This document shows, piece by piece, positions 852 to 43,037 of a stretch of 45,754 nucleotides of DNA; position 1 is the first letter of the stretch; the number at the start of each line of letters is the position of its first letter. The notes below the pieces were generated by a model. That model ran no database searches. It was not told the origin of the DNA and saw only the letters and a list, made by a program, of their open reading frames with translations. Position numbers and translations under genes: made by a program. The stretch comes from Nitrospira sp. (lineage in GTDB: Bacteria; Nitrospirota; Nitrospiria; Nitrospirales; Nitrospiraceae). Location of the stretch: positions 1-45,754 of the forward strand of contig JANDJG010000009.1 in assembly GCA_024331085.1 (NCBI GenBank), read 5' to 3'.

Positions 852-3800
852 TCACGTCCGAAGTTGATCCATAACGGTTTGCGCGTCTTGCAGGTCTATA
901 CAATTACAATTTGCTCGTTGATTGAATCGGGAATAAACAGTTTCTAGGAGACACCGGGCATCTTCCGGCCTGTTCAACGTCTTCAACAGCCTCGCCAGAC
1001 TCGTCGCCGCCCGAAGCTCCAACATGAAGGCATGTTGGCTCCGCGCGATCGTCAGCGCCTCTTGAAAACACTGTTTCACATCCTCGATCGGCGGATCGGC
1101 CCGCCCGAGCAACAATTCGCCCTTAAGCCTGCTCAGTTCAGCCATCCAAAACCGCTCGCCCTGTGTCGTAGCGAGCCGCTGCGCCTCTGCGATGGCGTCC
1201 ACCCCTTCATCGATTCGTCCATAATGCAGATCACTCTCCGCGAGCAAGGCCAACGTGTAGGTGTTATTGAGCGCAGCCCCCGTCGCTTGGGTCGCGGCGA
1301 GCCCCTCTCTCAACCGGGCAAGCCCCCTCTCATCACCGTTTTGGGCCAACGCCCAGCCCTGCGAGGAGACGGCCCAGGCTCGCGCCACTTCAAACGAATA
1401 CTTCGTTGAGATCGCGATCGCTTCCTCGGTCAACTCCAACGTGCGATTCGCGTCGCGCAGCATGGACGATATCCATGCCGTCGTCGCCAGGGTAAAGGCC
1501 AAGGTGAACGGATGCGCCAAGTCCCTCGCTTTGCCGATGGCCTCCGACACCAGCGGATCGACCCGGTCCACTTCGCCCACGATCCATAACGTCCGGGCCA
1601 GCATGATGCTCGCCGTGATGCCGGGGTCCTGCGTGTACGGCAAGGCGTGGGAGCGGCATGGACGCGGATCGGCCGTGGCAGCTTCGAGATGGCTCTTGGC
1701 CTCCTCGAACCGACCGATGAAGGAGCTGGTGGACCCTACACTCTCATGGGCACGAACTAAGAGCTCGGGAACCTGCCGGCGGCGGGCCAACGACAGAAGA
1801 TCTTCGGCCAGATCCGAAGCCCGCTCCAGGGGCCCCCGCACCAGATGGAACACCCAGAGTCCCCAGACAGCAAGGAAATGCTGGTCCGACAGACTGTCTT
1901 CGTTCGAGAGCTCCCTGGCTCGGCGATAGTTCCGCTCGATGTCGTCGGACGCATACCCCTTGAGGGTCACCATGGGAGCTCCACGCGCGATGAGGAGATC
2001 CAATTCCAAGGCGTCGCGATCTGGCCCTGCGGGTAACTCCTTCAACAAGGCCAACGCTTTGTTGAAATGATTGAGGGCTTCAATGTCAGCCGACCGCTCG
2101 GCATCCCTGCGAGCCGCGAGGCGGCGGTAGTGGACGGCGGCTCCTATCAATCCGGCCTGCTCATAGTGATAGGCCAAGAGTTCCGGCTCCGCCTTGACAC
2201 GCTCGGTGAACTTGCCCTCCAGCGCGCTTGCAAGACGGGCATGCAGGCTTCGGCGGGATTTTCTGGGCAACGTGTGATAGGCGGCGTCCTGCAACAACGC
2301 ATGTTTGAACTGAAACTTGGCGTTCGGGATGTCGCCTTCCTGGAAAATGAGCCCCGACATCACCAGACGGCGGAGCGCCTGCTCCAACTGGCTCTCCTCC
2401 AGATCGACCGCTTCCCGCAACAGTTCATAATCGAATTCCCGCCCGATCGCCGCTCCGATCTGCACGATGTCCTTGGCCGAACCCAATCGGTCGATCCGCT
2501 CCATGAGCAGAGCCTGCAAACTGTCGGGAATGGCCAAATCCGTCAATCGCGTGTTCAAGCTGAACGAGTCGGTCCCTTCGGTCAGCACGCCGGACGCGAG
2601 CAGATTTTCCGTCAACTCTTCGATATAGAGAGGAATCCCGTCCGTTTTCACCAGGACCGCCTGCTGCACCTCGGGCGGCAGCGCCTTGCCCCTGGTCATC
2701 TCCGCAATCAGCTCGGCGCTCTGCCGGCGCGGAAGTCGGTTCAAGGAAAGACAGGTGACGTGGCTGGAGTCGGCCCACATCGGCTTGAAATCAGGGCGAA
2801 AGGTGACGACCAACAGCACGTGCATCTGCTGAATGCGATCGATCATCCTCGTCAAAAAATCCAACGTGGTCGGATCAAGCCAATGGGCGTCCTCCACCAC
2901 GAACAACACGGGAGATCGATCGGCCAGTCTGTGAACGGACTGCACGAGCGCCTCCAGCGTCAGGTCTTTGCGCCGCTCCGGCGACAGAGCCGGCAGCCGA
3001 TCTGAATCGTCCGCCGATATCCCCATCAATTCGGCGATCAAAGCGACCGTGATCGGGTCGGCAAGCCCGATAGCAGCCATCAGATCATGGAGCTTTTGTC
3101 GTTGTGTCTCGGCGCCGTCCTCTCCCGTCATTCCCGCCATCTGCCGCAGAGCGGTGATCGCCGGATAGAGCACGGTGTCGGTATGGTGCGGCGAGCATTG
3201 AAATTGGACCAGGGCATGAGCGGAACCGGCAAGCCGATCGCTCACATAGCGGACCAATCTCGATTTGCCGATGCCGGCTTCGCCGCTGAGCAGCACGACC
3301 TGGCCTTCACCGTCGGCGGCTTCCCGCCAGCGGCCCATCAACAGCGCGGTCTCATGCTCCCTGCCGACGAAGCCGCCCATTCGGCCGGCTCGACGCGACT
3401 CGAACCGGCTGGCCGACGGCTTGCTCCGCAGCGCCCGCCATGCCTGGACTGGCGTTGAGAAGCCCTTGAGCGCGAACGTCCCGTGATCGGCGAACTCGAA
3501 CTCCCCGCCGACCAGACGCTTCGTCGCCGAATCCACGATCAATTGATTCGGCGCGGCCAGTGCCTGGAGTCGAGCCGCCAGATTCGGGGTCTCGCCGAAC
3601 ACCGACCGTTCCTTGGCGGTCGCCGTGCCGATCAGCTCTCCGACCATGACGGGTCCGGTCGCAATCCCGATTCTCACCGCCGGGTCAAACCCTTCGGGAA
3701 ACGGATGGTCGCGGGGCAGCACCTTGACCAGCTCCAAGACGGCCAACCCCGCGTGGACGGCCCGCTCGGCGTCATGTTCATAAGCCTGGGGATAGCCGAA

Positions 3801-4247
3801 ATAGGCCAACAGCCCGTCTCCCATGTATTTCGCGATGTAGCCGTTGAACCGGCCGATCGCTTGGCTGCACGCGTCCAGGAATCCCCGGATTGCGGCTTGA
3901 AGATCTTCGGGGTCCAGTCGGCAGGCCAACGCCGTCGACCCCGCAAGGTCGCAAAACATGACCGTCAATTGGCGGCGCTCTCCTTGGTCTTGGCCGGAGA
4001 GGACCGACACGGGTTCTTCGTTCCCGGCGATGGACCCGGGCGCCTCGCCGATGCTCGCCGGCCGTGGCGACAATTGGGCGATAGCACGCAACAGTTTTTT
4101 TCGATGTCCCAACAACACGCCCAAGGCAATCAAGTCTTGATCGTTCAGCTCCGGCAGCACGTCCCACGTAACGGCCTGCTGCTGAAACGCCTCTCGGTAT
4201 TGATCAAGGCCGAGATCTTTCAACCATGTCGAGACACGATCATCCAT
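852..4247 (-). CDS. SAM domain / class III nucleotide cyclase / AAA ATPase / TPR protein
   Basis: This 1131-aa cytosolic multidomain signalling protein starts with a SAM domain (about 1-60). A class III adenylate/guanylate cyclase domain follows (about 90-270). Its metal aspartates are D100 (FCDLAGS) and D144 (YMGDGLLAYF), and the transition-state pair N222/R226 sits in PNLAARL, so the catalytic site looks intact. A STAND-type ATPase follows, with Walker A SGEAGIGKS at about 321-329 and a Walker B-like LFVVEDAHWLD further on. The C-terminal ~450 residues are helical TPR-like repeats. This architecture is common in Nitrospira and rhizobia-type genomes, but no ligand or partner is known to me. 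Whether it makes cAMP or cGMP is not decided here. It probably shares a transcript with the downstream metallo-hydrolase gene. Confidence 0.88.
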   Translation of the reverse strand: MDDRVSTWLKDLGLDQYREAFQQQAVTWDVLPELNDQDLIALGVLLGHRKKLLRAIAQLSPRPASIGEAPGSIAGNEEPVSVLSGQDQGERRQLTVMFCDLAGSTALACRLDPEDLQAAIRGFLDACSQAIGRFNGYIAKYMGDGLLAYFGYPQAYEHDAERAVHAGLAVLELVKVLPRDHPFPEGFDPAVRIGIATGPVMVGELIGTATAKERSVFGETPNLAARLQALAAPNQLIVDSATKRLVGGEFEFADHGTFALKGFSTPVQAWRALRSKPSASRFESRRAGRMGGFVGREHETALLMGRWREAADGEGQVVLLSGEAGIGKSRLVRYVSDRLAGSAHALVQFQCSPHHTDTVLYPAITALRQMAGMTGEDGAETQRQKLHDLMAAIGLADPITVALIAELMGISADDSDRLPALSPERRKDLTLEALVQSVHRLADRSPVLFVVEDAHWLDPTTLDFLTRMIDRIQQMHVLLVVTFRPDFKPMWADSSHVTCLSLNRLPRRQSAELIAEMTRGKALPPEVQQAVLVKTDGIPLYIEELTENLLASGVLTEGTDSFSLNTRLTDLAIPDSLQALLMERIDRLGSAKDIVQIGAAIGREFDYELLREAVDLEESQLEQALRRLVMSGLIFQEGDIPNAKFQFKHALLQDAAYHTLPRKSRRSLHARLASALEGKFTERVKAEPELLAYHYEQAGLIGAAVHYRRLAARRDAERSADIEALNHFNKALALLKELPAGPDRDALELDLLIARGAPMVTLKGYASDDIERNYRRARELSNEDSLSDQHFLAVWGLWVFHLVRGPLERASDLAEDLLSLARRRQVPELLVRAHESVGSTSSFIGRFEEAKSHLEAATADPRPCRSHALPYTQDPGITASIMLARTLWIVGEVDRVDPLVSEAIGKARDLAHPFTLAFTLATTAWISSMLRDANRTLELTEEAIAISTKYSFEVARAWAVSSQGWALAQNGDERGLARLREGLAATQATGAALNNTYTLALLAESDLHYGRIDEGVDAIAEAQRLATTQGERFWMAELSRLKGELLLGRADPPIEDVKQCFQEALTIARSQHAFMLELRAATSLARLLKTLNRPEDARCLLETVYSRFNQRANCNCIDLQDAQTVMDQLRT

Positions 4248-4564: not shown

Positions 4565-6655
4565 TTACCGTTCCCGCAGGAGATCGACGATCAGTCCGAG
4601 CGTCAACAGTCCGGCCACGATCCCGAACGTGACGGGCACCCAGTCGGCGACGGTCGCCGACATGGCGGTAAGCCCGCTGGACAGCAGGCTCGCCGCGGCG
4701 GCCGAGCTCAGCGCCAGGCGCCGTCCCGTCCGGCGAACCGTCCGTTCGAGTGTATTGGCCTGAAAATTCACGACCAGCTTCTGTCCGGGTCTGGCCCCGA
4801 TCAGGTGTTCGACGGCTTCGGCCACTCGCTCCGCCCGCACTTTGAACTTTTGCAACTGATACGCCAGCGATTTGGGATCGAGCGCGGCCCCCGCGCGCGT
4901 GATCATGACGCGCATCAAAAACTTGCCCGCAACGTCGTACGGATCGAGTTTCGGATCAAGATGAGCCGTCGCCAGCTGAACTTGCGCCAGCGCCTTGGCG
5001 GCGAGCGTCAGCGAAGCCGGCAGCGGCACTCCATGTCGAAACGCAATGGCGCTCATTTCCTGCAACAGCGGTCCGATCTGCATCTCGGCGAGCGCCGCCT
5101 TGCGGTACTTGGCCATCACGTCGCCGATCTCGCTCTGCAACCGCGGAACGTCCAGATCGCTCCGGTCGATCGAACTCGTCATCATCAGCGTGACGTCGGT
5201 CAGAAACGCCGCGTCCTCTTTCCATAGAGCCATGAGCATCAACAAAAGATGCTCGCGCAACCCGGCGTCGATGGCCCCGACCATTCCGAAGTCGAGCAAG
5301 TACACGCGGTCCTTCCACCACATGAGGTTGCCCGGGTGCGGATCGGCATGAAAGAAGCCCTCGACGATGATCTGCTTGTAGAAACCCTCCAACAATTGGC
5401 GCGCCGCCTCGATCCGTTCCCGGCCTTCCGGCGCCTGCGCGATCGGGATTCCTTGAATCTCCTCCATTACCAACAAACGGGCGGTGGACAACTCCTGATG
5501 GACGGCGGGGACCGCCAATCGGTCATAGTCCGCCAGCACCGTCCGCATCCGTTGGATATTCTCGATCTCCTGGCGAAAGTCGAGCTCGCGCTGAAGCGAC
5601 GTCGAGAGGTGCTTGAACACCGCCTCGATATCCACGACCTGCTGCAGAGCGGGGCGTCGCCCGACTTGGCGGGCAAAGATCTCGAAGAGAGCCAGATCCT
5701 GCTCGATGTCGGCCCGAGCGGTCGGTCGTTGAACCTTGACGACAACTCGGTCTCCGTTTTCGAGAGTCGCCCGATGGACTTGCGCGATGGTCCCGGCGGC
5801 GAGCGGTCTGGGATCGATCGACTCGAACACGTCTTCCCACGGCACCCCCAGCTCCTGCTCCGCCACCCGAACGACCTCGCTTTCCGGCATGGGAGGCACG
5901 CGGCTCTGCAACAGGGCCAGTTCTTCGATGTACTCGGCCGGCAGAAGATCCGGACGAGTCGACAAGATCTGTCCGAGCTTCGAGAAGGTCGGACCCAATT
6001 CCTCCAACGCCGAGCGGAGGCGCTTGGCCTGTTGGCGACGAGTGGACACGTCCGCTTGATCAGGCCGGCTGAAGAGTTCCTTGACGCCGTGCTTCGCCAT
6101 CACCGTGGCGATGCGCACGGCCCGTCCTCCCAGCCTGGGTTCAGGAGAGGAGTCCTCGGTGGAGCGTTGAAAAATCGGCGCGGCTTCGGGACCTGGCTCG
6201 CCCACAGCCTGAAGGGTGTTCACAATGATGACGGTACAACGGGCATTGTGACTGATGCGGTTCGGGACGTTCCCCAGCAAGAACTCCTTTCGTCCCGCCA
6301 TACCCGAATTCCCGACCACCAGCACGTCGATCGCTTCGCGCTCGGCGGCACGGACGATGGTCAACGCCGGATCGGAATCGACGGCGACAAGGGCGTGTCC
6401 CCGTTCTCCGGCCAGTTGCGTCACGATCCGGGTGAGTTCATCGCCGGCGGCTTCGGCCCGGGTCTGTTCGGCGGCGCCGAATTCCGTGGCGGTCGGCTGT
6501 TGCGGCACGATGACCTGCACCACAAACAGCTCGGCTCCGTAACGATTTGCAAACTCAGCGGCCCACTGGACGGCATGGTCCGCCGTTTTGGAACGGTCGG
6601 TCCCTACCATCACACGTCGTATGCCGGTGGTGGGTACGGGTGAAGGAGGGGTCAT
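4565..6655 (-). CDS. Universal stress protein domain fused to ABC1/UbiB-type atypical kinase
   Basis: The 696-aa protein joins two modules. Residues ~11-147 form a UspA domain, with a nucleotide-loop-like GNSGMAG...LGN segment at 115-129. Residues ~180-560 form an ABC1/ADCK/UbiB atypical kinase: KLGQILS (KxGQ motif, 226-232), the alanine-rich loop AAGTIAQVHRA (287-297) replacing the usual P-loop, the VVVKVQRP lysine at 307, HADPHPGNL with the catalytic aspartate, and LLDFG as the metal-binding motif. Two hydrophobic segments close the C-terminus and would anchor the protein in the membrane. UbiB-like proteins support quinone biosynthesis or lipid homeostasis. The N-terminal USP suggests control by a bound nucleotide, which is inference. 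No ubiquinone or menaquinone genes lie next to it. Confidence 0.88.
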   Translation of the reverse strand: MTPPSPVPTTGIRRVMVGTDRSKTADHAVQWAAEFANRYGAELFVVQVIVPQQPTATEFGAAEQTRAEAAGDELTRIVTQLAGERGHALVAVDSDPALTIVRAAEREAIDVLVVGNSGMAGRKEFLLGNVPNRISHNARCTVIIVNTLQAVGEPGPEAAPIFQRSTEDSSPEPRLGGRAVRIATVMAKHGVKELFSRPDQADVSTRRQQAKRLRSALEELGPTFSKLGQILSTRPDLLPAEYIEELALLQSRVPPMPESEVVRVAEQELGVPWEDVFESIDPRPLAAGTIAQVHRATLENGDRVVVKVQRPTARADIEQDLALFEIFARQVGRRPALQQVVDIEAVFKHLSTSLQRELDFRQEIENIQRMRTVLADYDRLAVPAVHQELSTARLLVMEEIQGIPIAQAPEGRERIEAARQLLEGFYKQIIVEGFFHADPHPGNLMWWKDRVYLLDFGMVGAIDAGLREHLLLMLMALWKEDAAFLTDVTLMMTSSIDRSDLDVPRLQSEIGDVMAKYRKAALAEMQIGPLLQEMSAIAFRHGVPLPASLTLAAKALAQVQLATAHLDPKLDPYDVAGKFLMRVMITRAGAALDPKSLAYQLQKFKVRAERVAEAVEHLIGARPGQKLVVNFQANTLERTVRRTGRRLALSSAAAASLLSSGLTAMSATVADWVPVTFGIVAGLLTLGLIVDLLRER

Positions 6656-9238: not shown

Positions 9239-9274
9239 TAGAATCAAAAAATCAATCTTCTCATGGGAGAGCCG

Positions 9275-10519
9275 ATGAACATTCATCAAGAAACCGTCGT
9301 CTTGAGCGGACACATCATCGACTCGCTCTTGCTCGCCAAGGTGCTGGACATCATCCTGATGATGGGCGGCACGTTCGATATCGAGGACGTTCGGATCGGT
9401 AAAACCAGGGAGGACCCCTCTTGCGCCCGCATCACCGTTCAGGCTTCCTCCCATACGCTCCTGAACGACATCCTTAAATCGATCCAGCCGCACGGCGCCT
9501 CCGTCGAGCGCGAAGCGGACTGCCGGTTCGAAGCGGCGCCGGCGGACGGGATTTTCCCGGAGGATTTCTACGCCACGACCCATCTGCCGACCCAAATCAG
9601 GCTCAACGGCCGATGGATCGACGTCGAACACATCGAGATGGACGTCGGAATCGTGGTGGATCAAGAACGGGCGACCGCGCGAGCCGTTCCGATGGGCGAG
9701 GTTCGGCGGGGAGAGCTGATCGTCACCGGCCGCGAGGGCGTGCGCGTGATTCCCCTGGCGCGGCCGCGCGAGCGGGACGTCTTCGGCTTCATGGAATCCC
9801 ACGTGTCGGCGGAGCGGCCGCATGGCCACGTCATCGCCGACGTCGCCTCCCGAATGAGTCGGCTTCGGGAGCAACACAGGCGGGAGGGCGCCGCCTGCCG
9901 GGTTCTGCTGGCGGGAGGGCCGGCCATCATTCACGCCGGAGGGCGGGACGCCCTGACCTGGCTGATCGAGGAAGAATTCATCCACGTCTTGTTTTGCGGC
10001 AACGCCCTGGCGGCCCACGACATGGAAGCGGACCTCTACGGCACCTCCTTAGGCTACGGACTCACGGCCGGCCGCACGGTTCCTCACGGCCATGAACATC
10101 ACTTGCGAACGATCAATCGGATTCGCGCGATCGGCAGCATCGAGCGGGCCGTGGCCTCCGGCGTCGTGAAAAACGGTATCATGGCCGCCTGTGTCCGGAA
10201 GAACGTCCCAGTCATCATGGCCGGCACCATCCGCGACGACGGCCCCCTGCCGGGCGTCATCACCGACTCAATACAGGCCCAACAGGCCATGCGCGCCGCG
10301 ATCGGCGGTGTGAAGCTCGCGCTCCTGGTGGCCTCCACGCTGCACGCCGTTGCCACGGGCAACCTGCTGCCGGCGACGGTCCCGACCGTCTGCGCGGACA
10401 TCAATCCCTCCGTGCCGACCAAGCTCGCGGACCGCGGGAGTTTTCAGGCCGTCGGTCTGGTGATGGACGCGGCGTCGTTTCTCTCTGAGTTGGCCAGATT
10501 GCTGGGAAGGCCGGCATGA
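9275..10519 (+). CDS. TIGR00300 / LOR-SDH family protein, probable ornithine cyclodeaminase
   Basis: The 414-aa protein belongs to the LOR/SDH (TIGR00300) family, known from archaea and from the C-terminal half of the cyanobacterial arginine-degrading enzyme AgrE. Characterised members deaminate and cyclise ornithine to proline with bound NAD. Visible features are the N-terminal ferredoxin-like segment (ETVVLSGHIIDSLLLAKVLD), GGPAIIHAGGRDALTWLI, LFCGNALAAHDMEADLYGTSLG, GVVKNGIMAACVRKNVP and the nucleotide-fold end (ATVPTVCADINPSVPTKL). The ATG at 9275 has GGAG 5 nt upstream, better than the ATG at 9263. The stop overlaps the next start by 4 nt (ATGA), so the pair should be translationally coupled. 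The ornithine activity is inferred from family and partner. Confidence 0.85.
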   Translation: MNIHQETVVLSGHIIDSLLLAKVLDIILMMGGTFDIEDVRIGKTREDPSCARITVQASSHTLLNDILKSIQPHGASVEREADCRFEAAPADGIFPEDFYATTHLPTQIRLNGRWIDVEHIEMDVGIVVDQERATARAVPMGEVRRGELIVTGREGVRVIPLARPRERDVFGFMESHVSAERPHGHVIADVASRMSRLREQHRREGAACRVLLAGGPAIIHAGGRDALTWLIEEEFIHVLFCGNALAAHDMEADLYGTSLGYGLTAGRTVPHGHEHHLRTINRIRAIGSIERAVASGVVKNGIMAACVRKNVPVIMAGTIRDDGPLPGVITDSIQAQQAMRAAIGGVKLALLVASTLHAVATGNLLPATVPTVCADINPSVPTKLADRGSFQAVGLVMDAASFLSELARLLGRPA

Positions 10520-11319
10520 CCCGCCTCCTTGTCTGCCCGCCGGACTTTTTTGGAATCGAATATGAAATCAATCCCTGGATGCGACTCAACAATCAGGTGG
10601 ACCATGAACGGGCGATCCTCCAATGGAACAGCTTGATGGCGGTATTCGAACGGGACATCGGTGTGACGCTCGAACGGCTGGCGCCCGTGCCCGGCCTCCC
10701 CGATTTGGTCTTCACGGCCAACGCCGGCGTCGTGGTCGGCAAGACGGCGGTGGTCAGCCGGTTTCGGCATCCGGAGCGACGGCGTGAGGAAGCCTGCTTC
10801 GAACAGTGGTTTCGCGACCACGGCTACAAGGTTCTGGCGTTGGAGCCTGGCCTGTTCTTCGAAGGAGCGGGAGACCTCCTGGGTTTCCCGGACTATTGGT
10901 TCGGCGGCTATCGACAACGATCGGATATCCGCGTATTCCCGATCCTGAGCGAATGGTTTCATCGGGAAATCATCCCGCTCGAACTGGTGGACGGCCGCTT
11001 CTATCATCTGGATACCTGCTTCTGCCCCTTGAGCGGAGGCGAGTTGTTGTATTTTCCGGCCGCCTTCGATCGCTATGGCCAAACCGCCATTGCCGAGCGA
11101 ATCCCACCGACCAAGCGACTCGTAGTCCCCGAGCAGGATGCGCTGCGATTCGCCTGCAACGCCGTCTGTATCGACAGCCACGTGGCTCTGCCCGCCGGCT
11201 GCCCCACGACCGAACGGATGCTCCATGAGCGGGGCTATCAGGTTCACGCCGTGCCGCTCGATGAGTTCATGAAATCAGGGGGATCAGCCAAGTGTCTCAC
11301 GTTAAAGCTGGACGAGTGA
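10516..11319 (+). CDS. argZ: Arginine dihydrolase / amidinotransferase-superfamily hydrolase (ArgZ/AgrE N-domain type)
   Basis: This 267-aa guanidine-group-modifying enzyme has the pentein-fold triad expected of the superfamily: E116 in FFEGAGD, H164 in YHLDT and C260 near the C-terminus (GGSAKCLTL). N69 lies in VFTANAG and an INPWM motif at about 18-22; both are typical of ArgZ/AgrE arginine dihydrolases, where an asparagine replaces the aspartate found in arginine deiminases. Predicted reaction: arginine to ornithine, CO2 and two ammonia. It overlaps the ornithine cyclodeaminase-like gene by 4 nt, so the two genes together equal one bifunctional AgrE. Alternative: dimethylargininase or another amidinohydrolase, which the neighbour makes less likely. 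Confidence 0.82.
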   Translation: MTRLLVCPPDFFGIEYEINPWMRLNNQVDHERAILQWNSLMAVFERDIGVTLERLAPVPGLPDLVFTANAGVVVGKTAVVSRFRHPERRREEACFEQWFRDHGYKVLALEPGLFFEGAGDLLGFPDYWFGGYRQRSDIRVFPILSEWFHREIIPLELVDGRFYHLDTCFCPLSGGELLYFPAAFDRYGQTAIAERIPPTKRLVVPEQDALRFACNAVCIDSHVALPAGCPTTERMLHERGYQVHAVPLDEFMKSGGSAKCLTLKLDE

Positions 11320-11862: not shown

Positions 11863-11892
11863 TTGACAGGGGGAAGAGGGGCTTTCTATAAT
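11863..11892 (+). promoter_or_regulatory. Near-consensus sigma70 promoter for gpsA-larB
   Basis: TTGACA at 11863-11868 and TATAAT at 11887-11892 are both exact consensus hexamers, 18 nt apart. Transcription should start near 11899, leaving a leader of about 78 nt before gpsA. No obvious Shine-Dalgarno sequence precedes the gpsA ATG. Confidence 0.72.
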
Positions 11893-11976: not shown

Positions 11977-12996
11977 ATGCAACCGAGCACCAGCATAGCC
12001 GTCATCGGAGCGGGAGCATGGGGAACGGCTCTTGCCAAATTGCTGGCCGAGAAGGGGTTGACCGTTCGCCTCTGGGCCTATGAGCAAGAGGTGGCTCGGT
12101 CGATCAACTCGTTTCACGAGAATCCGGTTTTTCTGAAAGGCGTTCCGCTTCCCTCCGCCCTCACCGCCACCTCATCTCTCCCGGATGCCGTGGAAGGCTG
12201 TGAAGCCCTGCTCTTCGTCACGCCTTCTCACGTGGCGCGGGCGGTTCTGAACCGGTTGGCTCCCTGTCTGAGCCGTCCGATTCCTTTGATCAGCGCCACC
12301 AAGGGTCTTGAGGAGGACACCGGGAAGCTTATGACCCAGGTGATGGAAGAGATCTTGCCTCCATCCATGCATCAATCCCTGATGGTCCTTTCCGGACCCA
12401 GTTTTGCCGGCGAGTTGAGTGCCGGACGCCCTACCGCGGTTTGTCTTGCCGGTTCGGACGACCGGCTTGCCCGGCGGTTCCAACAGACCTTGATGACGCC
12501 GGTCTTTCGCGTCTATGCCGATCTCGACGTGATCGGCGTCCAGTTGGGCGGGGCGTTGAAAAACGTCATCGCTCTGGCGGCCGGCATCGTGGACGGCCTG
12601 GATCTGGGGCTCAACGCGCGCGCGGCGCTCATCACGAGGGGACTGGCGGAGATCGTTCGATTGGGCGCGGCCATGGGAGCCGATCCCCGCACTTTCTACG
12701 GCCTGTCCGGCGTGGGAGACCTCGTGCTGACCTGCACCGGCACGCTGAGCCGAAACCATACGGTCGGCATGCGCATCGGGAAAGGCGAACCGCTCGAAAC
12801 GGTTCTGGGCACCATGCACGCCGTCGCCGAAGGGGTCCGGACCGCCCGCGCGGCGCTGCAACTGGCTCGGCGACACGGCGTGGAGATGCCCATTACGCAA
12901 GAGATCAACGCCGTGCTGTTCGAAGGCAAGTCCTGTCGAAAGGCCGTGAGCGACCTGATGGAACGCGACGCCAAAATGGAAAAATCCTCCGCATGA
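11977..12996 (+). CDS. gpsA: Glycerol-3-phosphate dehydrogenase [NAD(P)+]
   Basis: GpsA reduces dihydroxyacetone phosphate to sn-glycerol-3-phosphate, the backbone for phospholipids. The 339-aa protein has the Rossmann motif GAGAWGTALA (11-20), SATKGLEEDTG, the LSGPSFAGE segment and the catalytic-lysine region GGALKNVIALAAG (about 191-203), followed by GLAEIVRLGAAMG, GLSGVGDLVLTC and SRNHTVG. The length is normal. Its TGA overlaps the larB start (ATGA), so the two genes are coupled behind the promoter at 11863-11892. Confidence 0.96.
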   Translation: MQPSTSIAVIGAGAWGTALAKLLAEKGLTVRLWAYEQEVARSINSFHENPVFLKGVPLPSALTATSSLPDAVEGCEALLFVTPSHVARAVLNRLAPCLSRPIPLISATKGLEEDTGKLMTQVMEEILPPSMHQSLMVLSGPSFAGELSAGRPTAVCLAGSDDRLARRFQQTLMTPVFRVYADLDVIGVQLGGALKNVIALAAGIVDGLDLGLNARAALITRGLAEIVRLGAAMGADPRTFYGLSGVGDLVLTCTGTLSRNHTVGMRIGKGEPLETVLGTMHAVAEGVRTARAALQLARRHGVEMPITQEINAVLFEGKSCRKAVSDLMERDAKMEKSSA

Positions 12997-13766
12997 GTCC
13001 GGAACAACTTGAGCGACTCCTCCGGCAGGTTCGTCACGGGCGGGTGACGATCGAGCAGGCGCTTCAACGGCTGCGATCCCTGCCGTTTGAGAACCTGGGC
13101 TTCGCCTCTCCCGACCATCACCGTTCGTTGCGCCAGGGGTTCCCCGAGGTGGTGCTGTGCGAAGGCAAGACGCTCGCCCAGATTCTTGCCCTTACACGAT
13201 CGCTCGTGAAACACGGCGGCCCTTTCCTTGCCACACGGGCTGAACCGTCGGTGGCCCGCGCCATTCGGCGGCTCATCCCTCGGGCTCGATATGCCCCCGA
13301 TGCCCGCGTCGTCGCCGTCCCGCCACGCCCCTGGACAAAACGCGGCCATGTCCTTGTGATTACCGCCGGCACCGCCGATATCCCGGTGGCGGAGGAAGCC
13401 CGAGTCACGGCGGAAGTCATGGGAAGCCGAGTGGACCGACTATACGACGTGGGAGTCGCCGGTCTTCACCGGCTGCTGGACAGAAAAGAACGGCTCTTTG
13501 ACGCCAGGGTGATCGTCGTCGTGGCGGGTATGGACGGAGTCTTGCCGAGCGTCGTGGGCGGCTTGGTGAGTTGTCCGGTGATCGCGGTCCCCACCAGTCG
13601 CGGCTATGGGGCGAGTTTCGGCGGGCTGTCGGCGTTGCTCACGATGCTCAACTCCTGCGCGGCCGGCGTCGGGGTCATGAACATCGACAACGGCTTTGGG
13701 GCGGGCTGCCTGGCCCACCGGATTAATACGCTGGGACTGAAAGATAGGGAAGAAGCAGGCGCGTAG
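12993..13766 (+). CDS. larB: Nickel pincer cofactor biosynthesis protein LarB
   Basis: LarB carboxylates and hydrolyses nicotinic acid adenine dinucleotide to pyridinium-3,5-biscarboxylic acid mononucleotide, the first step of the nickel-pincer nucleotide pathway. The 257-aa protein has the characteristic N-terminal LLRQVRHGRVTIEQALQRL and FENLGFASPDHHR segments and a C-terminal PurE-like domain (VITAGTADIPVAEEA, RLYDVGVAGLHRLLD, VVVAGMDGVLPSVVGG, VPTSRGYGASFGG). The ATG overlaps the gpsA stop by 4 nt. The frame is open further upstream inside gpsA but that part is a shadow. LarC is encoded 0.8 kb away; LarE and any NPN-dependent enzyme such as LarA are not in this window. Confidence 0.93.
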   Translation: MSPEQLERLLRQVRHGRVTIEQALQRLRSLPFENLGFASPDHHRSLRQGFPEVVLCEGKTLAQILALTRSLVKHGGPFLATRAEPSVARAIRRLIPRARYAPDARVVAVPPRPWTKRGHVLVITAGTADIPVAEEARVTAEVMGSRVDRLYDVGVAGLHRLLDRKERLFDARVIVVVAGMDGVLPSVVGGLVSCPVIAVPTSRGYGASFGGLSALLTMLNSCAAGVGVMNIDNGFGAGCLAHRINTLGLKDREEAGA

Positions 13767-14402: not shown

Positions 14403-14550
14403 GAGGCGAGCAAGATCTCCGATGACGTCGCGCGATCGTGTCGTTTCGGATAACACAGCGCCGGGAGGCTGTCAACGAGAGGACGGAAACGAATTGCCGC
14501 GCGCCGTTCCCTTGGGTAAGATGATCGGCCATTTCGCGAAGAGGAGACCG

Positions 14551-15774
14551 GTGGGGCGCCGTCTGCATTTCGATTGTTTTTCCGGCGTCAGCGGCGACAT
14601 GATGCTGGGCGCGCTGGTCGACGCCGGACTGCCTTGGACCACATTGGTGAACGGACTCAAAGGCTTGAAGTTGAACGGATACCGGCTGCGCAAGCGAACC
14701 GTGCGTCGGGGATCGTTGGATGCCACGAAGGTCGACGTCATCGTCCGACAGGGGTTCGAGCGGCCCCTTTCGCTTCCTCGCATCCGCCGGATCGTGGCCG
14801 CCGGCGTCCTGCCGCCCGTCGTCAAACAACGGAGCCTTGATGTGTTCGATCGATTGGCCGAAGCGGAGGGAACGGCCCATCGCACGGCCGGCCGCAAGGT
14901 TCGGTTTCATGAAGTGGGCGTCATCGATTCGTTGATCGACGTGGTGGGCAGCGTGCTGGGTTGCCATCTCCTGGGCATTACCGACGCCACGGCCTCCGCC
15001 GTCAACGTGGGGAGCGGAACGGTGCCGACGTCCCACGGCCCGTTGCCGGTGCCTGGGCCGACCGTGGCGGTTCTGGCGAAAGGGATTCCCGTCTATGCCG
15101 AGGGGCCGCGTTGCGAACTCGCCACCCCCACCGGCATGGCGCTGTTGCGAACTCTCGTATCGGATTTCGGTTCGACTCCGACGATGAAAATCGCGGCGGT
15201 CGGGCACGGCGCCGGCGATCACGATCCGGAGAATTGGCCGAACGTCTTGCGCGTGTTCCTTTCCGAGCCGACAGCCGGCGGAGGCCTGGCGATCGACCGT
15301 GTGATCCAGCTTGAGACGAACCTCGACGACCTGGCCCCGCAGACCTACGAACACGTCATGGACCGCCTGTTTCAAGCCGGCGCTTTGGATGTCGCGCTGA
15401 TTCCGGCCATCATGAAACAAAGCAGGCCCGGCGTGATTCTCACTTGCCTGGCCGCGCCGGAGCGGAGCGAGGCGATCCTCGATGTGTTGTTCAAGGAAAC
15501 GCCCACGCTCGGCGTGCGCCTGCAAGAACTATCCAGGCGGGTGCTCCCCCGGCGTCTCGTGTCGATGAAGGTCGCCGGAGGCACGGTCCGCATGAAGGTC
15601 GCCACGATGGCCGATGGGACGGAGAAGGCGGCTCCCGAGTATCGCGACTGTAAGGCCGTCGCCGACCGCACCGGACTGCCTCTCAGAAGCGTGATGGAGG
15701 AGGCCTGCCGCATCTATCACGCCGATCGGAGGACGGAACGAAACACGACAACGGAGATCAAGCCGAAGAGCTGA
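14551..15774 (+). CDS. larC: Nickel pincer cofactor biosynthesis protein LarC
   Basis: LarC inserts nickel into the pincer nucleotide, forming Ni-C and Ni-S bonds in a CTP-dependent reaction. The ~407-aa protein shows HFDCFSGVSGDMMLGALVDAG at the N-terminus, KVRFHEVGVIDSLIDVVG, GSGTVPTSHGPLPVPGP, TPTGMALLRTL and the C-terminal domain LETNLDDLAPQTYEHVMDRL...DVALIPAIMKQSRPG. I chose the GTG at 14551, which has GAGGAG just upstream; an in-frame ATG lies at 14521. LarC is read as one uninterrupted frame here, unlike Lactobacillus plantarum, where a programmed frameshift joins LarC1 and LarC2. larB lies upstream, separated by a minus-strand gene. Confidence 0.93.
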   Translation: MGRRLHFDCFSGVSGDMMLGALVDAGLPWTTLVNGLKGLKLNGYRLRKRTVRRGSLDATKVDVIVRQGFERPLSLPRIRRIVAAGVLPPVVKQRSLDVFDRLAEAEGTAHRTAGRKVRFHEVGVIDSLIDVVGSVLGCHLLGITDATASAVNVGSGTVPTSHGPLPVPGPTVAVLAKGIPVYAEGPRCELATPTGMALLRTLVSDFGSTPTMKIAAVGHGAGDHDPENWPNVLRVFLSEPTAGGGLAIDRVIQLETNLDDLAPQTYEHVMDRLFQAGALDVALIPAIMKQSRPGVILTCLAAPERSEAILDVLFKETPTLGVRLQELSRRVLPRRLVSMKVAGGTVRMKVATMADGTEKAAPEYRDCKAVADRTGLPLRSVMEEACRIYHADRRTERNTTTEIKPKS

Positions 15775-29585: not shown

Positions 29586-31031
<1,446 letters not shown>

Positions 31032-31144
31032 TCACCTTTCCAAATCGATGTCTGGTTTCCACGCCCCTTGACCGACGAATCGATCCTCCGGGGTTCATCC
31101 GCTTCTCCTTGCTCGCGTGTCGCGAAACGCGCTCGTGACAGTCC

Positions 31145-32023
31145 CTATTTCAGCGCTTCCGCGCCTCCTACGATATCCATCAATTCCTTGGTGATCGCCG
31201 CTTGCCGAGTCTTGTTGTAGTACAGCGTGACTTTTTTGATGAGCTGTCCGGCGTTGCGCGTCGCGCCGTCCATGGCGGCCATGCGTGCCCCGTGCTCGGC
31301 GGCGGCTGATTCCAGGAGAATTCTATAGGTTTGAACTTGAAAATGCTTGGGCACCAGAACGTCCAACAGTTCCGCTTCGCCCGGCTCGTAGAGATAGCCG
31401 CCTCCCGCCGCGCCTTCGACCGGCGCCACACCGAACTCGGAAGCCGCATCGACGGGAAAGAGTTTCTCGACGATCACACGCTGCTGGATCGCCGACTTAA
31501 ACTCATTGTACACGACGTAGAGTTCATCGAACGTGCCCTGGACGAACTGGTCGGTGAGATCGCCGCCGATATCGATGGCGTGCTCGAAACTCAACTTATC
31601 GAAAATCCCCGTCCATTCTTGGCGAATCGGCCACGCGCGGCGGCGAAAATAATCCCGCCCCTTTCGCCCGACGATACTCAGATGGACCGCCACTCCCCTC
31701 GCCTCGCACTGCCTCACGAACTCCGTACTCCGCCGCACGATGTTGCCGTTGAAGCCTCCGCACAAACCGCGGTCGCTCGTCACCACCAGCACTTCGACTT
31801 TTTTGCCCTCGCGCTTCTGCAGGAGCGGATGGGCGGAGCGATTTACCCGTTGGCTTAAATTACTCAAGACACCTCGCATTTTATGAGCGTAGGGACGGGC
31901 CGCCAGGATACGGTCCTGGGAGCGTTTCAGCTTCGCGGCGGCCACCATTTTCATGGCCTTCGTGATCTTCTGGGTGTTCTTGAACGCCGCGATCTTGCGG
32001 CGGAGCGATTGGAGACTTGGCAT
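31145..32023 (-). CDS. atpG: F-type ATP synthase gamma subunit
   Basis: The 292-aa rotor shaft subunit has the conserved N-terminal helix SLQSLRRKIAAFKNTQKITKAMKMVAAAKL and the C-terminal helix MAAMDGATRNAGQLIKKVTLYYNKTRQAAITKEL; both are typical coiled-coil ends. The central SDRGLCGGFN motif is present. It lies between atpA and atpD in the usual order. Confidence 0.97.
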   Translation of the reverse strand: MPSLQSLRRKIAAFKNTQKITKAMKMVAAAKLKRSQDRILAARPYAHKMRGVLSNLSQRVNRSAHPLLQKREGKKVEVLVVTSDRGLCGGFNGNIVRRSTEFVRQCEARGVAVHLSIVGRKGRDYFRRRAWPIRQEWTGIFDKLSFEHAIDIGGDLTDQFVQGTFDELYVVYNEFKSAIQQRVIVEKLFPVDAASEFGVAPVEGAAGGGYLYEPGEAELLDVLVPKHFQVQTYRILLESAAAEHGARMAAMDGATRNAGQLIKKVTLYYNKTRQAAITKELMDIVGGAEALK

Positions 32024-32098
32024 GGTGTCTTATTTCGAAGTATCGATCGAGAGGCTAAAGATCCTTTTAGGAGAAGCCCTCTCACCCGCGCCTTTCAC

Positions 32099-33619
32099 TC
32101 AGGCTTTGGCTCCATACCCCATCTTCTGCTTAAAGGTTGTGATTATTTCTCTCAGACGGCCTCCGACTTTGTCGTCGATCTTGCCGATCGACGTCACTTC
32201 CTTCCTCAGTTCAGGATGATGCTGCTGAATGTAATGCAGCAAATCCGCTTCAAACTGCTGCACTTTATCGACGGCCACATCGTCGAGAAAACCATTGACG
32301 CCGGCAAAAATGGAGAGCACCTGATCGGCCACCGGCATCGGCTTGTACTGGCCCTGCTTGAGCAGCTCGACCATGCGAACCCCTCGCGCCAATTGCATCT
32401 GGGTCGCCTTGTCCAGCTCGCTTCCGAATTGCGCAAAGGCGGCCATCTCCCGATATTGAGCCAGGTCGAGCCGAAGCGTTCCGGCCACTTGCTTCATGGT
32501 CTTAATTTGCGCCGCCCCTCCGACACGAGAGACGGAGAGGCCGACGTTGATGGCCGGGCGAATACCCGAATAAAACAGATCACTGCCCAGATAAATCTGC
32601 CCGTCGGTGATTGAAATCACGTTGGTCGGAATGTATGCCGACACGTCTCCGGCCTGCGTTTCGATGATCGGCAAAGCGGTCAAACTGCCTCCCCCGAGCG
32701 CATCACTCAGCTTCGCCGCCCGCTCGAGAAGGCGGGAATGCAGATAGAACACGTCGCCCGGATACGCTTCCCGGCCAGGCGGTCGACGGAGCAACAGCGA
32801 CAACTGTCGATAGGCGACGGCGTGCTTGGACAAATCATCGTACACGATCAGGGCGTGCTTGGCGTTGTCGCGGAAGTATTCGCCCATGGCCGCCCCGGCA
32901 AACGGCGCCAGAAACTGCATGGGAGCAGGCTCGCTGGCCGTCGCGGAGACGACCATGCTGTAGTCCATCGCGTGGTGCTCCTCAAGGGTTTTAACGACCC
33001 GCGCCACGGTTGACCGCTTCTGGCCGATGGCCACATAAATGCAGAAGACTCCCAGACCTCGCTGATTGATGATGGTATCGACGGCAATGGCGGTTTTGCC
33101 GGTCTGCCGATCTCCGATGATCAACTCGCGCTGTCCGCGGCCGATCGGAATCATCGCGTCGATGGCCTTGATGCCGGTCTGTAGCGGCTCACGCACCGAT
33201 TGGCGGGTGTTCACGCCCGGAGCCACCACCTCGATGCGGGAAAAATGCTGCGACTTGATCGGCCCTTTTCCGTCGATCGGCTGGCCGATCGCGTTGACCA
33301 CCCGACCGATCAATGCCTCGCCCACGGGAACCTCCGCGATGCGGCCCGTACGCCTGACCGGATCGCCTTCCTTGATGCCGACGTCGTCGCCCATAAGCAC
33401 GGCCCCGACGTTGTCCTCTTCAAGATTCAGCGCGATTCCATAGAGCCCGCCGGGAAACTCGAGCATCTCACCCGCCATGGCTCCGTCGAGCCCGTACACC
33501 TTGGCGATGCCGTCTCCGACCTGGATGACGGAGCCGGTCTCTTTCACGTCGACTTGTTTGTCGAATCCCCGAATCTTTTCTTTGATGATCGCGCTGATTT
33601 CATCGGCTTTGATCTGCAT
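32099..33619 (-). CDS. atpA: F-type ATP synthase alpha subunit
   Basis: The 506-aa non-catalytic nucleotide-binding subunit has Walker [35 protein letters not shown] and the conserved arginine-finger region [15 protein letters not shown]. The start at ATG 33619 ([16 protein letters not shown]) has GGAG nearby; the longer frame to 33652 adds 11 residues unlike AtpA. The length is then the family's usual 500-510. Confidence 0.98.
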
Positions 33620-33678
33620 GACCACTCCTTCATCCGCAGGACGGCGAGACACCGGACGGCCATCCCGCCTCCGCCGAC

Positions 33679-34218
33679 CTACTCTCTCGTCAGCAATGAC
33701 TGGATATCGTTTAAGCGGCCCCGGATCGTGCCGTCGACCACCATGTTTCCGACTTGAATCCGGACTCCGGCCAAGAGGTTCGCATCGGTATGGAACGTGA
33801 CCGCGACTTCTCGCTTCAGCGCATCGCGCAGTCGTGCTTGAGTCCGATCCCGCTCGGCCTGGGAGAGTTCCGTAGCCGACGCTACCGAGACTTGTTGCAC
33901 GCCTTTCGATTGATCGACCAGCTTCCCGAACGCCTCGGCAATTTCCGGCAAAAACCCGATGCGATTTTTCCTGACCAATTGCCCAAGAAAAGCTTTTCCC
34001 TCCGAAGGACAGTGAAAGCGACCGCTCAATTCCGTCAGCACGGAGATTTTTTCCTCGGCGCTGAACGCCGGCGACGCGGTAACGTAGCGAAGATCCCCGG
34101 ACTCTTTTATAGCCTGTCCGAGGCCGTTCAGGGTCTCTCGAGTGGCTTCGATATCGGTTGGGTCAAGAAGCTCGAAGAGCGCCCGTGCGTAACGCCGCGC
34201 AACTACCGTTTTAATCAC
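33679..34218 (-). CDS. atpH: F-type ATP synthase delta subunit
   Basis: The 179-aa peripheral-stalk subunit joins F1 to the membrane sector. It shows [11 protein letters not shown] near the N-terminus, [21 protein letters not shown] in the middle and [26 protein letters not shown] at the C-terminus, all typical. The GTG at 34218 gives the correct length; the frame is open to 34293. It is the first gene of the cluster. The F0 genes atpB, atpE and atpF are not next to it: upstream lies a 309-nt gap and a divergent gene. Confidence 0.94.
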
Positions 34219-34420
34219 TGTCGGTGATCCACTTGCCGAATCGTGGGACAAACAAAATCGTTCGCGCGAAACGCACGACAATCGACCCGGCACACTACCA
34301 TTGAAGAATGTCGGCTGTCAATCCGACCAAGCCGACCGAGCGTCGAGCAGGCCGTCCTCAAGCCAACCACTGCTCGATTTTCACTCTGCCACGTCCATGA
34401 GACCAAGAATGCAACCGGTA

Positions 34421-40073: not shown

Positions 40074-41222
40074 TCAGCGTTTCTTTCGATTGCCCAGATG
40101 CCCGGAACGCACCTGACAGGCCAGCACGTCGCAGATGACCCGCGTGGCCATGAGGCTGGTGATCTCCGCCGCGTCGTAGGGCGGCGCGCATTCGACGATT
40201 TCCATACCGGCCAGCGGCTTGGTGTCGGCGATGATCTGGAGAAACTTCAGCACCTCGCGCGGGAGAAACCCGCCCGGCTCCGGCCAGCCGGTGCCCGGCA
40301 CGAACGCGGCGTCCAAGCAATCGACGTCGAAGCTCAACCACACGGCGTCCACGCCGTCGAACGCCACTTCCAGCGCCTGCTTGGCGGCGTTTTCAATGCC
40401 CATTTCCACGCAATCGGTCACGGTCATGATGGTCGTTTGGCGCTCCCGCCCAACTTTCACGCCGGGCCTGGGCGCTTGCCATCCGCCGATGCCGATCTGC
40501 ACCAGATTTTTGGCCGGAACGTTGGGAATGTTCGTCGCGTGAAACCACGGCGTGGTGTGCATGCGCTCGTCGAGATCGGTGTCCTGCGTGTCCACGTGCC
40601 TGTCGAAGTGAAGGATGCCGAGCTTCTTGCCGTTTAAGTGCTGCGCCACGCCGCGCACCGTCGCGAAGCCGAGCGAATGGTCCCCGCCGAGCACCACGGG
40701 AAACGCGCCGCTGGCGAAGACATGCCCCACGCCCTTGCTGACTTGGTCGAAGGTTTTCTCGATGTTGCCGGGAATCGTAAAGATGTCGCCGACGTCGCAA
40801 ATCGAGACGGATTCCCGTAGATCCACGCCGAGTTCGAAACTGTACGTCCCGTATAACGCCGAAATTTTGCGAATACCCTGGGGCCCGAACCTGGTGCCGG
40901 CACGATATGTCGTCCCGCCGTCGAACGGCGCGCCGAGAATCGCCACGTCGTACTGGCCGCATTTGCGCACATCTTCCACATACGGTGCCTTGATAAACGT
41001 GTTGATGCCGGCGAAATGGGGCAGCTCTCCTCGGCTGAAGGTGGGAATCCGGCGATCCTTGATGGAATCGGCCCCGGGCAGGCCCAATTCAAGGCCGCGG
41101 GCGATCTCTTCTTCAAATTTCGTCGTCGGCAGCAGCGCCTCCGCTTCAACGGCGTACTTCGCTTCCGGCCCGTATTTGTCATGCAGCGGAACCTTGCCTT
41201 GGTACGTTCTCTTTTTCGCCAT
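40074..41222 (-). CDS. gdmH: Guanidinase (guanidine hydrolase) of the ureohydrolase family
   Basis: This 382-aa ureohydrolase is predicted to hydrolyse guanidine to urea and ammonia. Metal ligands are H182 (GGDHS), D207, H209 and D211 in HFDRHVDTQ, and D299/D301 in SFDVDCLD. Two points favour guanidinase over agmatinase. The length matches the ~390-aa guanidinases, with an N-terminal extension of ~70 residues, while agmatinases are ~300 aa. The motifs DRHVD and PGTGWPEPGG, in place of DAHxD and PGTGTPEPGG of agmatinases, match my memory of guanidinases. The permease gene 86 nt upstream and its guanidine-I riboswitch give independent support. AAAGGAG precedes the ATG. Known guanidinases need nickel. 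Urea released would need urease encoded elsewhere. Substrate not proven. Confidence 0.85.
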   Translation of the reverse strand: MAKKRTYQGKVPLHDKYGPEAKYAVEAEALLPTTKFEEEIARGLELGLPGADSIKDRRIPTFSRGELPHFAGINTFIKAPYVEDVRKCGQYDVAILGAPFDGGTTYRAGTRFGPQGIRKISALYGTYSFELGVDLRESVSICDVGDIFTIPGNIEKTFDQVSKGVGHVFASGAFPVVLGGDHSLGFATVRGVAQHLNGKKLGILHFDRHVDTQDTDLDERMHTTPWFHATNIPNVPAKNLVQIGIGGWQAPRPGVKVGRERQTTIMTVTDCVEMGIENAAKQALEVAFDGVDAVWLSFDVDCLDAAFVPGTGWPEPGGFLPREVLKFLQIIADTKPLAGMEIVECAPPYDAAEITSLMATRVICDVLACQVRSGHLGNRKKR

Positions 41223-41308
41223 GATTGCTCCTTTCTACAAGATGATGAATGGATGCTCTCCCCTGTTCGACCCCTCTGACGACGCAAGACGCGGTGAATA
41301 ACCGGCCT

Positions 41309-42859
41309 TCATTCTTGACCGGGCTCGGCCTTTCCCGATTCGACTTTTCCCAGGTAAACCGGCGACCTGTTTCTGCCGACGATGACGGACAGCGTCGTCG
41401 ACGTGAGAATGCCGCCGAGCACCAACGGGACGGCCCAGAGTTGCCACCAGGGCGCATCGGGAGCGACGGCGTAGGGACGCGGCCACGCGATGTTGACGAA
41501 TTCAAACACCGACCAGAGAAACGCCACCGTATTGATCGGGAGTCCCCACGAGCCCAACTTCAGGTGACCCAACGAAGGATCCCACCGGCCGGTAAGACGG
41601 GTGAAGAGTCCGACTCCCGTCGTCATTGCGAACATGGCGTACAACCCGCCCGTGCCGAACGCCAGCACCGTGGCGACCGCTTCATCATTGAGCCCAAACA
41701 ACAATCCCAGCGTGGCCAGGGCGACCGTGAACAGGACGGCGCGGCGCGGCGCACCGGCGGCGGTGACCCGACTGAGAGCGCCCGGCAGGCTTCCTTCGCG
41801 AGCCATGGAAAACACGATGCGGGAGGTGTACCGGACCATCGACGAGCCACAAGCCAAGAACGCCACCAAGACGATGGCCAGGAACGGGGTTTCCGCCCAG
41901 GCTCCGAAATTGTCGACGATCACGGGCGTGACAGGGTCGGAGGCGGCGCTGGTCTGTTGCAGAGCATCGCGGTGAAAACTCAGGGTCAGGGCGGCGGAAT
42001 TGAAGAGCACCACGCTTCCGACCATGCAGAGCGAGAAAAAGATCGCGCGCGGCACCATCCGTTTGGGGTCGTGCGTTTCTTCGGCGATGGTCGAGCAGGC
42101 GTCGAAGCCGATGAAGGCCCAACCCGATATCGCGAGCGCCGCCAAAAACGCGGCGGTTTTACCGGGAGCGCTCCCGGTCCCAAGGTGTGCGAACAGTTCA
42201 GAGAATTCATGCTGCCGGAAAAAGAGAAACAGCAGAAGCGCGACACCAAATGAACCGACGATTTCCGCGTAGACGCCGAGAGAAATGAGCAGCTTAAAGG
42301 CCGAGACGTGGACGAGGTTCAGCACGGTGCAGACCAGCATGAACGCCGCTCCCCAGAGGACCAGGTACAAACCCGTTTCACTGTGGGATCCGAAAAAAAT
42401 CGCCAGCCAGATGCCGCCGGTATAGGCGGTGGTGGTCAACATCGCGATCGTGGAGCTGATGTAAATGGCGCCGGCGTACGTGCCCGTGATTTCGCCGCCG
42501 AGTTGCCTCGCCCATTTGTACGCGCCCCCCGCGATCGGGATCTGCGAGGACAGTTCCGCATAGACCGTCGCGACCAGCAACTGCATCACCAAACACAGGG
42601 CCAGGGCGGGAAACCATCCGCCTCCGGCGACGACCGTCTGAACGCCGATAATGGCGTAGAGCCCCGCGACTGGGGAGACGGTTGCAAATCCGATGGTCAG
42701 GCTGTTCCAGAGACTGAGGCTCCGATGGAGCGTCGGAGGGACACTCGCCGCGTGCGCAGAACGAACGTACTCCGCGTTTTCTTCGGTGAAGACGGCCGCT
42801 TTTTCCGGCTCGATCGACGACGGACTGTGCTGAAGAGGATCGGTGGGGTGGATTTCCAT
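41309..42859 (-). CDS. APC-superfamily permease, predicted guanidine importer
   Basis: The 516-aa integral membrane transporter has about 12 hydrophobic segments. It carries the APC motifs GFATVSPVAGLYAIIG, ELSSQIPIAGGAYKWARQLGG (TM3 region) and ISGWAFIGFDACSTIAEETHDP (TM6 region). It groups with amino acid/amine/choline transporters. The frame is open to an ATG at 42916, but that codon lies inside the riboswitch hairpin. The ATG at 42859 has GGGAGG 8 nt upstream, so I take it as the start. The leader carries a guanidine-I riboswitch and the guanidinase gene follows, so guanidine is the likely substrate. Direction of transport is inference; exporters under this riboswitch class usually are SMR or MATE types. 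Confidence 0.85.
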   Translation of the reverse strand: MEIHPTDPLQHSPSSIEPEKAAVFTEENAEYVRSAHAASVPPTLHRSLSLWNSLTIGFATVSPVAGLYAIIGVQTVVAGGGWFPALALCLVMQLLVATVYAELSSQIPIAGGAYKWARQLGGEITGTYAGAIYISSTIAMLTTTAYTGGIWLAIFFGSHSETGLYLVLWGAAFMLVCTVLNLVHVSAFKLLISLGVYAEIVGSFGVALLLFLFFRQHEFSELFAHLGTGSAPGKTAAFLAALAISGWAFIGFDACSTIAEETHDPKRMVPRAIFFSLCMVGSVVLFNSAALTLSFHRDALQQTSAASDPVTPVIVDNFGAWAETPFLAIVLVAFLACGSSMVRYTSRIVFSMAREGSLPGALSRVTAAGAPRRAVLFTVALATLGLLFGLNDEAVATVLAFGTGGLYAMFAMTTGVGLFTRLTGRWDPSLGHLKLGSWGLPINTVAFLWSVFEFVNIAWPRPYAVAPDAPWWQLWAVPLVLGGILTSTTLSVIVGRNRSPVYLGKVESGKAEPGQE

Positions 42860-42892
42860 AACGAGGACCTCCCGCTCGAAGGACTCACTCCC

Positions 42893-42917
42893 AAAAGGCC
42901 ATGTACCGCCGTACATG
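42893..42917 (-). terminator. Riboswitch-linked hairpin with U tract (possible expression platform)
   Basis: On the minus strand CATGTAC and GTACATG (42917-42911 and 42906-42900) pair perfectly around a 4-nt loop. GGCC and then TTTT (42896-42893) follow. It begins at the last bases of the guanidine aptamer. Placed there, it looks like the attenuator that ligand binding would regulate. The stem is only 7 bp and moderately GC-rich. Confidence 0.5.
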
Positions 42918-43013
42918 ATCTCCCGGGTTTTTATCCCTCCGTGGAGCCTCGTTATGCGAGGCCGAAAACTCTTGGCCCAGACACTTTCTTTTACGAGAAA
43001 GCCGGAACCCTAG
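42917..43013 (-). ncRNA. Guanidine-I riboswitch (ykkC-yxkD leader) aptamer
   Basis: Read on the minus strand, the conserved core CTAGGGTTCCGGC starts at 43013. The second conserved block CTGGGCCAAGAG starts at 42980. A 6-bp hairpin follows (GCCTCG, loop, CGAGGC; 42962-42946). The 3' block GGAGGGATAAAAACCCGGGAGA lies at about 42940-42919, split here as GGAGGGATAAAA and ACCCGGGAGA. Order, spacing and these sequences match the guanidine-I consensus. The aptamer is about 97 nt and sits directly upstream of the permease gene. This class senses guanidinium and usually turns expression on. Confidence 0.93.
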
Positions 43014-43037
43014 TTTTCCTTTTGGATTTTTTACAGC

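Follow-up and report, generated by a model that had tools for sequence, protein, structure and literature searches.

The closest described relatives of the locus reported here are two fused enzymes, AgrE of Anabaena (Alr4995) and ArgZ of Synechocystis (Sll1336). AgrE carries both of the domains, the catalytic residues and the predicted overall reaction that we find in Nitrospira, in a single polypeptide of 703 aa that begins with the dihydrolase (PMC8262935), and ArgZ is likewise fused to a cyclodeaminase domain. Fused proteins in the PDB have the dihydrolase at the N-terminus and the cyclodeaminase at the C-terminus. Stand-alone relatives of the cyclodeaminase half exist in archaea as TIGR00300/LOR-SDH proteins, among them that of Methanococcus maripaludis (3c2q) and MJ1480. 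A further point of comparison is the lactate racemase LarA with its homologues, whose nickel-pincer nucleotide (NPN) cofactor comes from LarB, LarE and LarC.

Fused AgrE/ArgZ, stand-alone TIGR00300 proteins and the NPN pathway are already known. What we add is that in Nitrospira the two are conserved as separate, overlapping genes in reversed order, and that they are linked to larB and larC. Our literature search returned no paper describing such a pair or its larBC link, which is not proof of absence, and the novelty of the nickel link is limited because the NCBIfam name of TIGR00300, which reads NPN dependent, is evidence that the connection is already known or suspected elsewhere.

Results

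The window, by which we mean the whole 45,754-nucleotide stretch of Nitrospira DNA that was analysed, encodes on the forward strand a putative ornithine cyclodeaminase of 414 aa (OCD, 9275..10519), a TIGR00300 protein with Saccharop_dh_N and ArgZ-like C-terminal domains, followed by a putative ArgZ/AgrE-type arginine dihydrolase of 267 aa (AgD, 10516..11319). The stop codon of the first gene and the start codon of the second share the forward-strand letters ATGA at 10516..10519. An in-frame ATG at 9263 offers an alternative OCD start, but we prefer 9275 because GGGAGAG sits shortly 5' of it. The earlier note had described the two halves of AgrE as separate genes that overlap by 4 nt in reversed order, and both the coordinates and the shared ATGA agree with this description; the order is reversed because the fused proteins in the PDB put the dihydrolase first, whereas here the cyclodeaminase precedes it. 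The term "split AgrE" of the earlier note would suggest a fused ancestor; we use it for two genes as against one, with no order of descent implied.

A search for the pair recovered 80 genome contigs from Nitrospira, other Nitrospirota and one Nitrospinota, and none in plasmid searches. OCD and AgD are adjacent in every locus where both could be read, and the pair is conserved throughout Nitrospira and its order. A 4-nt overlap, ATGA or GTGA, is present in 91 of 109 loci, and deeper lineages have short gaps in its place. For OCD and for AgD alike, dN/dS is about 0.08-0.12 in all pairs that allowed a calculation, which means that purifying selection acts on both wherever dS could be estimated. 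The arrangement is not due to chance. Translational coupling across the overlap is probable, and the overlap would serve to maintain co-translation of the two proteins.

Within Nitrospira, including N. moscoviensis and N. defluvii, the pair lies in a conserved block that reads TruD, OCD, AgD, an opposite-strand gene, GpsA, LarB, LarC, CaX and PdxA. The gpsA-like glycerol-3-phosphate dehydrogenase gene (11977..12996, forward strand), an ORF recognised by sequence whose position is conserved in the genus, is a neighbour outside the pathway. It overlaps by 4 nt with larB (12993..13766, forward strand; NF033503, 285.4 bits against a cut-off of 175), which belongs to the biosynthesis of the nickel-pincer cofactor. 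The larC gene, for nickel insertion into that cofactor, is a single ORF at 14521..15774 of the same strand (TIGR00299, 173.3 against 90; NF052512, 138.8 against 50). The two lar genes are thus 2.5-5 kb downstream of OCD-AgD. A single operon holding OCD-AgD and larB-larC was considered and rejected, as the two are separated by the opposite-strand gene and by a perfect promoter. The latter is a sigma-70-like TTGACA-18-TATAAT ahead of gpsA (11863..11892, forward strand) that agrees with the consensus at 12 of 12 positions; the promoter scan found one site against 0.9 expected at a looser threshold, the site found being this perfect match. Because it precedes gpsA, the predicted gpsA-larB transcript is probably separate from that of OCD-AgD. 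In deeper Nitrospirales there is no larB or larC within 10 kb of OCD, and a distant OCD relative in Acetoanaerobium has neither gene nearby.

Other features of the window lie on the opposite strand: a large protein that combines SAM, adenylate/guanylate cyclase and AAA domains (852-4247), a fusion of a universal stress protein domain with an ABC1 atypical kinase domain (4565-6655), and an ATP synthase cluster (29586-34293) in which Pfam assigns a V/A-type C-terminal domain to the first ORF (29586-31028), next to F-type subunits.

OCD scores 469.5 bits with TIGR00300, above the cut-off of 410.8, and covers positions 4-402 of the 407 in the model. Its Pfam domains (PF04455, PF21571 and PF21570) are the three that make up the C-terminal half of AgrE/ArgZ, and its closest PDB matches are 3c2q and the C-terminal halves of AgrE and ArgZ. 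With the archaeal TIGR00300/LOR-SDH proteins it shares family and the invariant His, Asp and Lys; these differ in that we have not seen them paired with an arginine dihydrolase, and 3c2q matches OCD from residue 82 on. AF2 models OCD with modest confidence (pLDDT 73.7, pTM 0.57), and we therefore build no active-site argument on that model. From its sequence, OCD is a TIGR00300 ornithine cyclodeaminase predicted to convert ornithine to proline.

The earlier note had taken NAD as the defining cofactor of OCD, and the homologue AgrE was crystallised with NAD+ (PDB 6lrg, by its title, an entry that contains NAD+ and ornithine), which counts against dependence on NPN. OCD could accordingly depend on NAD for its cyclodeaminase activity, as has been published for AgrE, with the lar genes serving another protein and their linkage incidental. 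By structure comparison its Rossmann domain resembles that of the NAD-binding deoxyhypusine synthase, and the same block holds unrelated housekeeping genes (gpsA, pdxA and truD). We nevertheless consider this explanation unlikely, since NCBIfam assigns TIGR00300 to NPN dependence and the window genome retains larB, larC and larE in the absence of LarA or a GSU2086-family protein. All three Lar proteins were found there by profile searches, with larE at G000:C158:9016-9786 (319.7 bits against a cut-off of 150), and LarA (PF09861) was found neither in the window genome nor in any of 59 relatives. Because the genome keeps these genes with neither LarA nor GSU2086, we think it most likely that OCD uses NPN. 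Our literature search found no source publication for the NCBIfam label and no paper linking nickel-pincer with cyclodeaminase.

Co-occurrence across 138 Nitrospirota likewise speaks against an incidental linkage: LarB is present in 45/45 genomes with OCD as against 69/93 without it, although these counts take in related genomes that are not independent points, and Fisher values thus overstate the association. Two apparent absences of OCD (G002 and G023) were dismissed as artefacts of contigs that start downstream of the gene, and the association would therefore be stronger. Most OCD genomes carry GSU2086 too, so that the presence of larB there cannot be tied to OCD specifically. In 12 relatives, counting the window genome, OCD occurs without LarA or GSU2086, and all 12 retain larB and larE.

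A joint loss offers a further argument. In one Nitrospira metagenome-assembled genome that is 95% complete (G003; locus L186, G003:C54:30000-46000), OCD is a pseudogene of which the first 20-odd codons and the last ~90 remain, with a stop codon, the catalytic domain being lost. At the same locus larB is missing and larC is reduced to a 62-aa remnant, while TruD, AgD, GpsA, CaX and PdxA are intact. Searches of this genome recovered neither LarB nor LarE above cut-off, and GSU2086 and LarA were likewise absent. Although the assembly could be in error, this is made less likely by two separate lesions that lie between intact genes and by the loss of larE, which is unlinked. The decay of OCD together with the lar genes connects it with the genes for NPN and is hard to square with lar genes that serve another protein. 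AgD in this genome is open across 266 residues with its motifs present, which indicates that the dihydrolase can be retained when the cyclodeaminase is lost.

It is thus doubtful that NAD is the defining cofactor, given that the NCBIfam label, the lar neighbourhood, the co-occurrence and the co-loss all point to NPN. The probable separate transcription of OCD-AgD and gpsA-larB weighs on the other side, as does the distance of larB and larC from OCD in deeper Nitrospirales. This genome evidence suggests that the second step uses NPN made by the products of neighbouring genes, not NAD alone; OCD would draw on the nucleotide produced by LarB, LarE and LarC, and would probably share this cofactor with LarA and its homologues. 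No sequence relation between LarA and OCD was found, and the OCD fold is deoxyhypusine-synthase-like.

The GSU2086 family (NF052581) tracks larB even more closely than OCD does. Among 91 Nitrospirota without OCD and LarA, 66 have both GSU2086 and larB, 20 have neither and 5 are mismatched, and the co-absences are spread over four or more families within the phylum. OCD and GSU2086 share a weak HDxE-containing Rossmann segment, and the HMM hit between the two families, though weak, comes back at one and the same segment; comparing their profiles with each other yielded a 49-column match with a probability of 4.5%, which is not significant. GSU2086 may be another NPN enzyme, which we offer as a lead only. 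Some Nitrospira also have divergent second copies of larB (L190-L194 and L196; 52-64% to the window LarB) off the conserved block. Two of their neighbourhoods were read by ORF (G006 and G030; L191 and L193) and held no evident NPN user, and the remaining ones were compared with the window's own genes only.

Discussion

Taken together, families and residues point to a two-step pathway. AgD would hydrolyse arginine at its Cys260/His164/Asn69 site, yielding ornithine, CO2 and two NH3, and OCD would cyclise the ornithine to proline and release a third NH3. The sum that the earlier note had predicted, arginine to proline, CO2 and three NH3, is still the best reading of the pair. PutA, which is encoded elsewhere in the genome, could then oxidise proline to glutamate. 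The window genome has PutA at C10 and ProC at C5, and because both share a genome with OCD-AgD, a route from arginine through ornithine and proline to glutamate, releasing CO2 and three NH3, is likely. It matches the Anabaena scheme, in which AgrE is followed by PutA (PMC8262935). From this we infer a role in arginine catabolism that feeds ammonia and glutamate.

One could instead imagine that the main role is biosynthetic, with OCD supplying proline and AgD recycling arginine in an ornithine-ammonia cycle largely independently of it. That AgD stays intact in G003 despite the decay of OCD would fit such a division, as would the occurrence of related TIGR00300 proteins in archaea. We hold it to be improbable: ProC is found in 54/59 relatives, the window genome included, and OCD is therefore probably not the sole proline route, an idea that we had entertained and dropped on finding ProC; PutA, in 53/59 relatives and in the window genome as well, speaks for catabolism.

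The host is a nitrifier, one of the settings that the earlier note had considered, namely a Nitrospira. A guanidine-use cluster lies elsewhere in the window (40074-43024, reverse strand), with a Guanidine-I riboswitch (42918-43024), an APC permease (41309-42916) and a guanidinase that is identical in 380/382 residues to that of comammox N. inopinata in structure 9FEK. Judged by this one protein, the organism and comammox N. inopinata are probably very closely related, and the near-identity leads us to propose that ammonia released from arginine may feed energy metabolism directly. The further proposal of an arginine store is weakened by the literature alone: a published survey (PMC10687191) found cphA, the gene for cyanophycin synthetase, in none of the nitrite-oxidiser genomes and not in comammox N. 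nitrosa either. Going by that survey, cyanophycin storage in this nitrifier is unlikely.

A catabolic route from arginine presupposes that AgD is a dihydrolase. Residues C260, H164 and N69 and the motif INPWM, all pointed out in the earlier note, are present, and the three residues align with C264, H168 and N71 of ArgZ, where this asparagine is reportedly essential, as also in AgrE. AgD matches the N-terminal half of ArgZ along its entire length, and at FTANAG, FEGAGD, HLDTCFCPL and AKCLTL it has ArgZ-type residues where dimethylargininases differ. It is 47% identical to the ArgZ/AgrE dihydrolases. Its AF2 model (pLDDT 83) has ArgZ and AgrE as its top structural matches, with a TM of 0.90 to ArgZ structures and ~0.78 to dimethylargininases. 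With the arginine dihydrolase model NF052232 it scores 297.1 bits over the full length, below the cut-off of 450, and with the dimethylargininase model NF045659 229.9 bits, below 300, and because it falls short of both it lies outside the curated family limits; the fused model NF052231 (cut-off 1025) gives 376.9 and 296.1 bits on the two separate proteins. Unlike ArgZ, then, AgD is stand-alone and under the NF052232 cut-off. By motif and predicted fold it is best read as an arginine dihydrolase like ArgZ. Were it a dimethylargininase or an arginine deiminase, the pair would form no arginine-to-proline pathway, but despite its score with NF045659 and an identity of 39-40% to two actinobacterial proteins annotated as dimethylargininases this is very improbable, since motifs, identity and structure comparison led us to reject a dimethylargininase and the partner gene is the C-terminal half of AgrE.

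Overall, the OCD-AgD pair is real and conserved and represents a variation on a known pathway, with a nickel link that can be tested. The full reading, in which a two-gene AgrE made up of the dihydrolase AgD and a cyclodeaminase operating on NPN serves arginine catabolism, appears to us reasonably probable. The wider proposal, that Nitrospirota, mostly without LarA, make NPN for two non-LarA enzymes, the TIGR00300 cyclodeaminase and the uncharacterised GSU2086, is more tentative, and we would put it slightly below even chances. Both bear on a published puzzle: larBCE occurs without larA in about 15% of genomes, and in Synechocystis the larBCE genes make NPN for a user that is unidentified (PMC11796402). 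If OCD depends on NPN, it is a candidate for that missing user in larBCE-positive, larA-negative genomes, and if GSU2086 does too, the two families would largely explain it. The pair is also a ready system for comparing fused and split forms of one two-step pathway. For the nitrifiers themselves, arginine catabolism would be nickel-dependent, by way of a cofactor known biochemically from LarA-family racemases.
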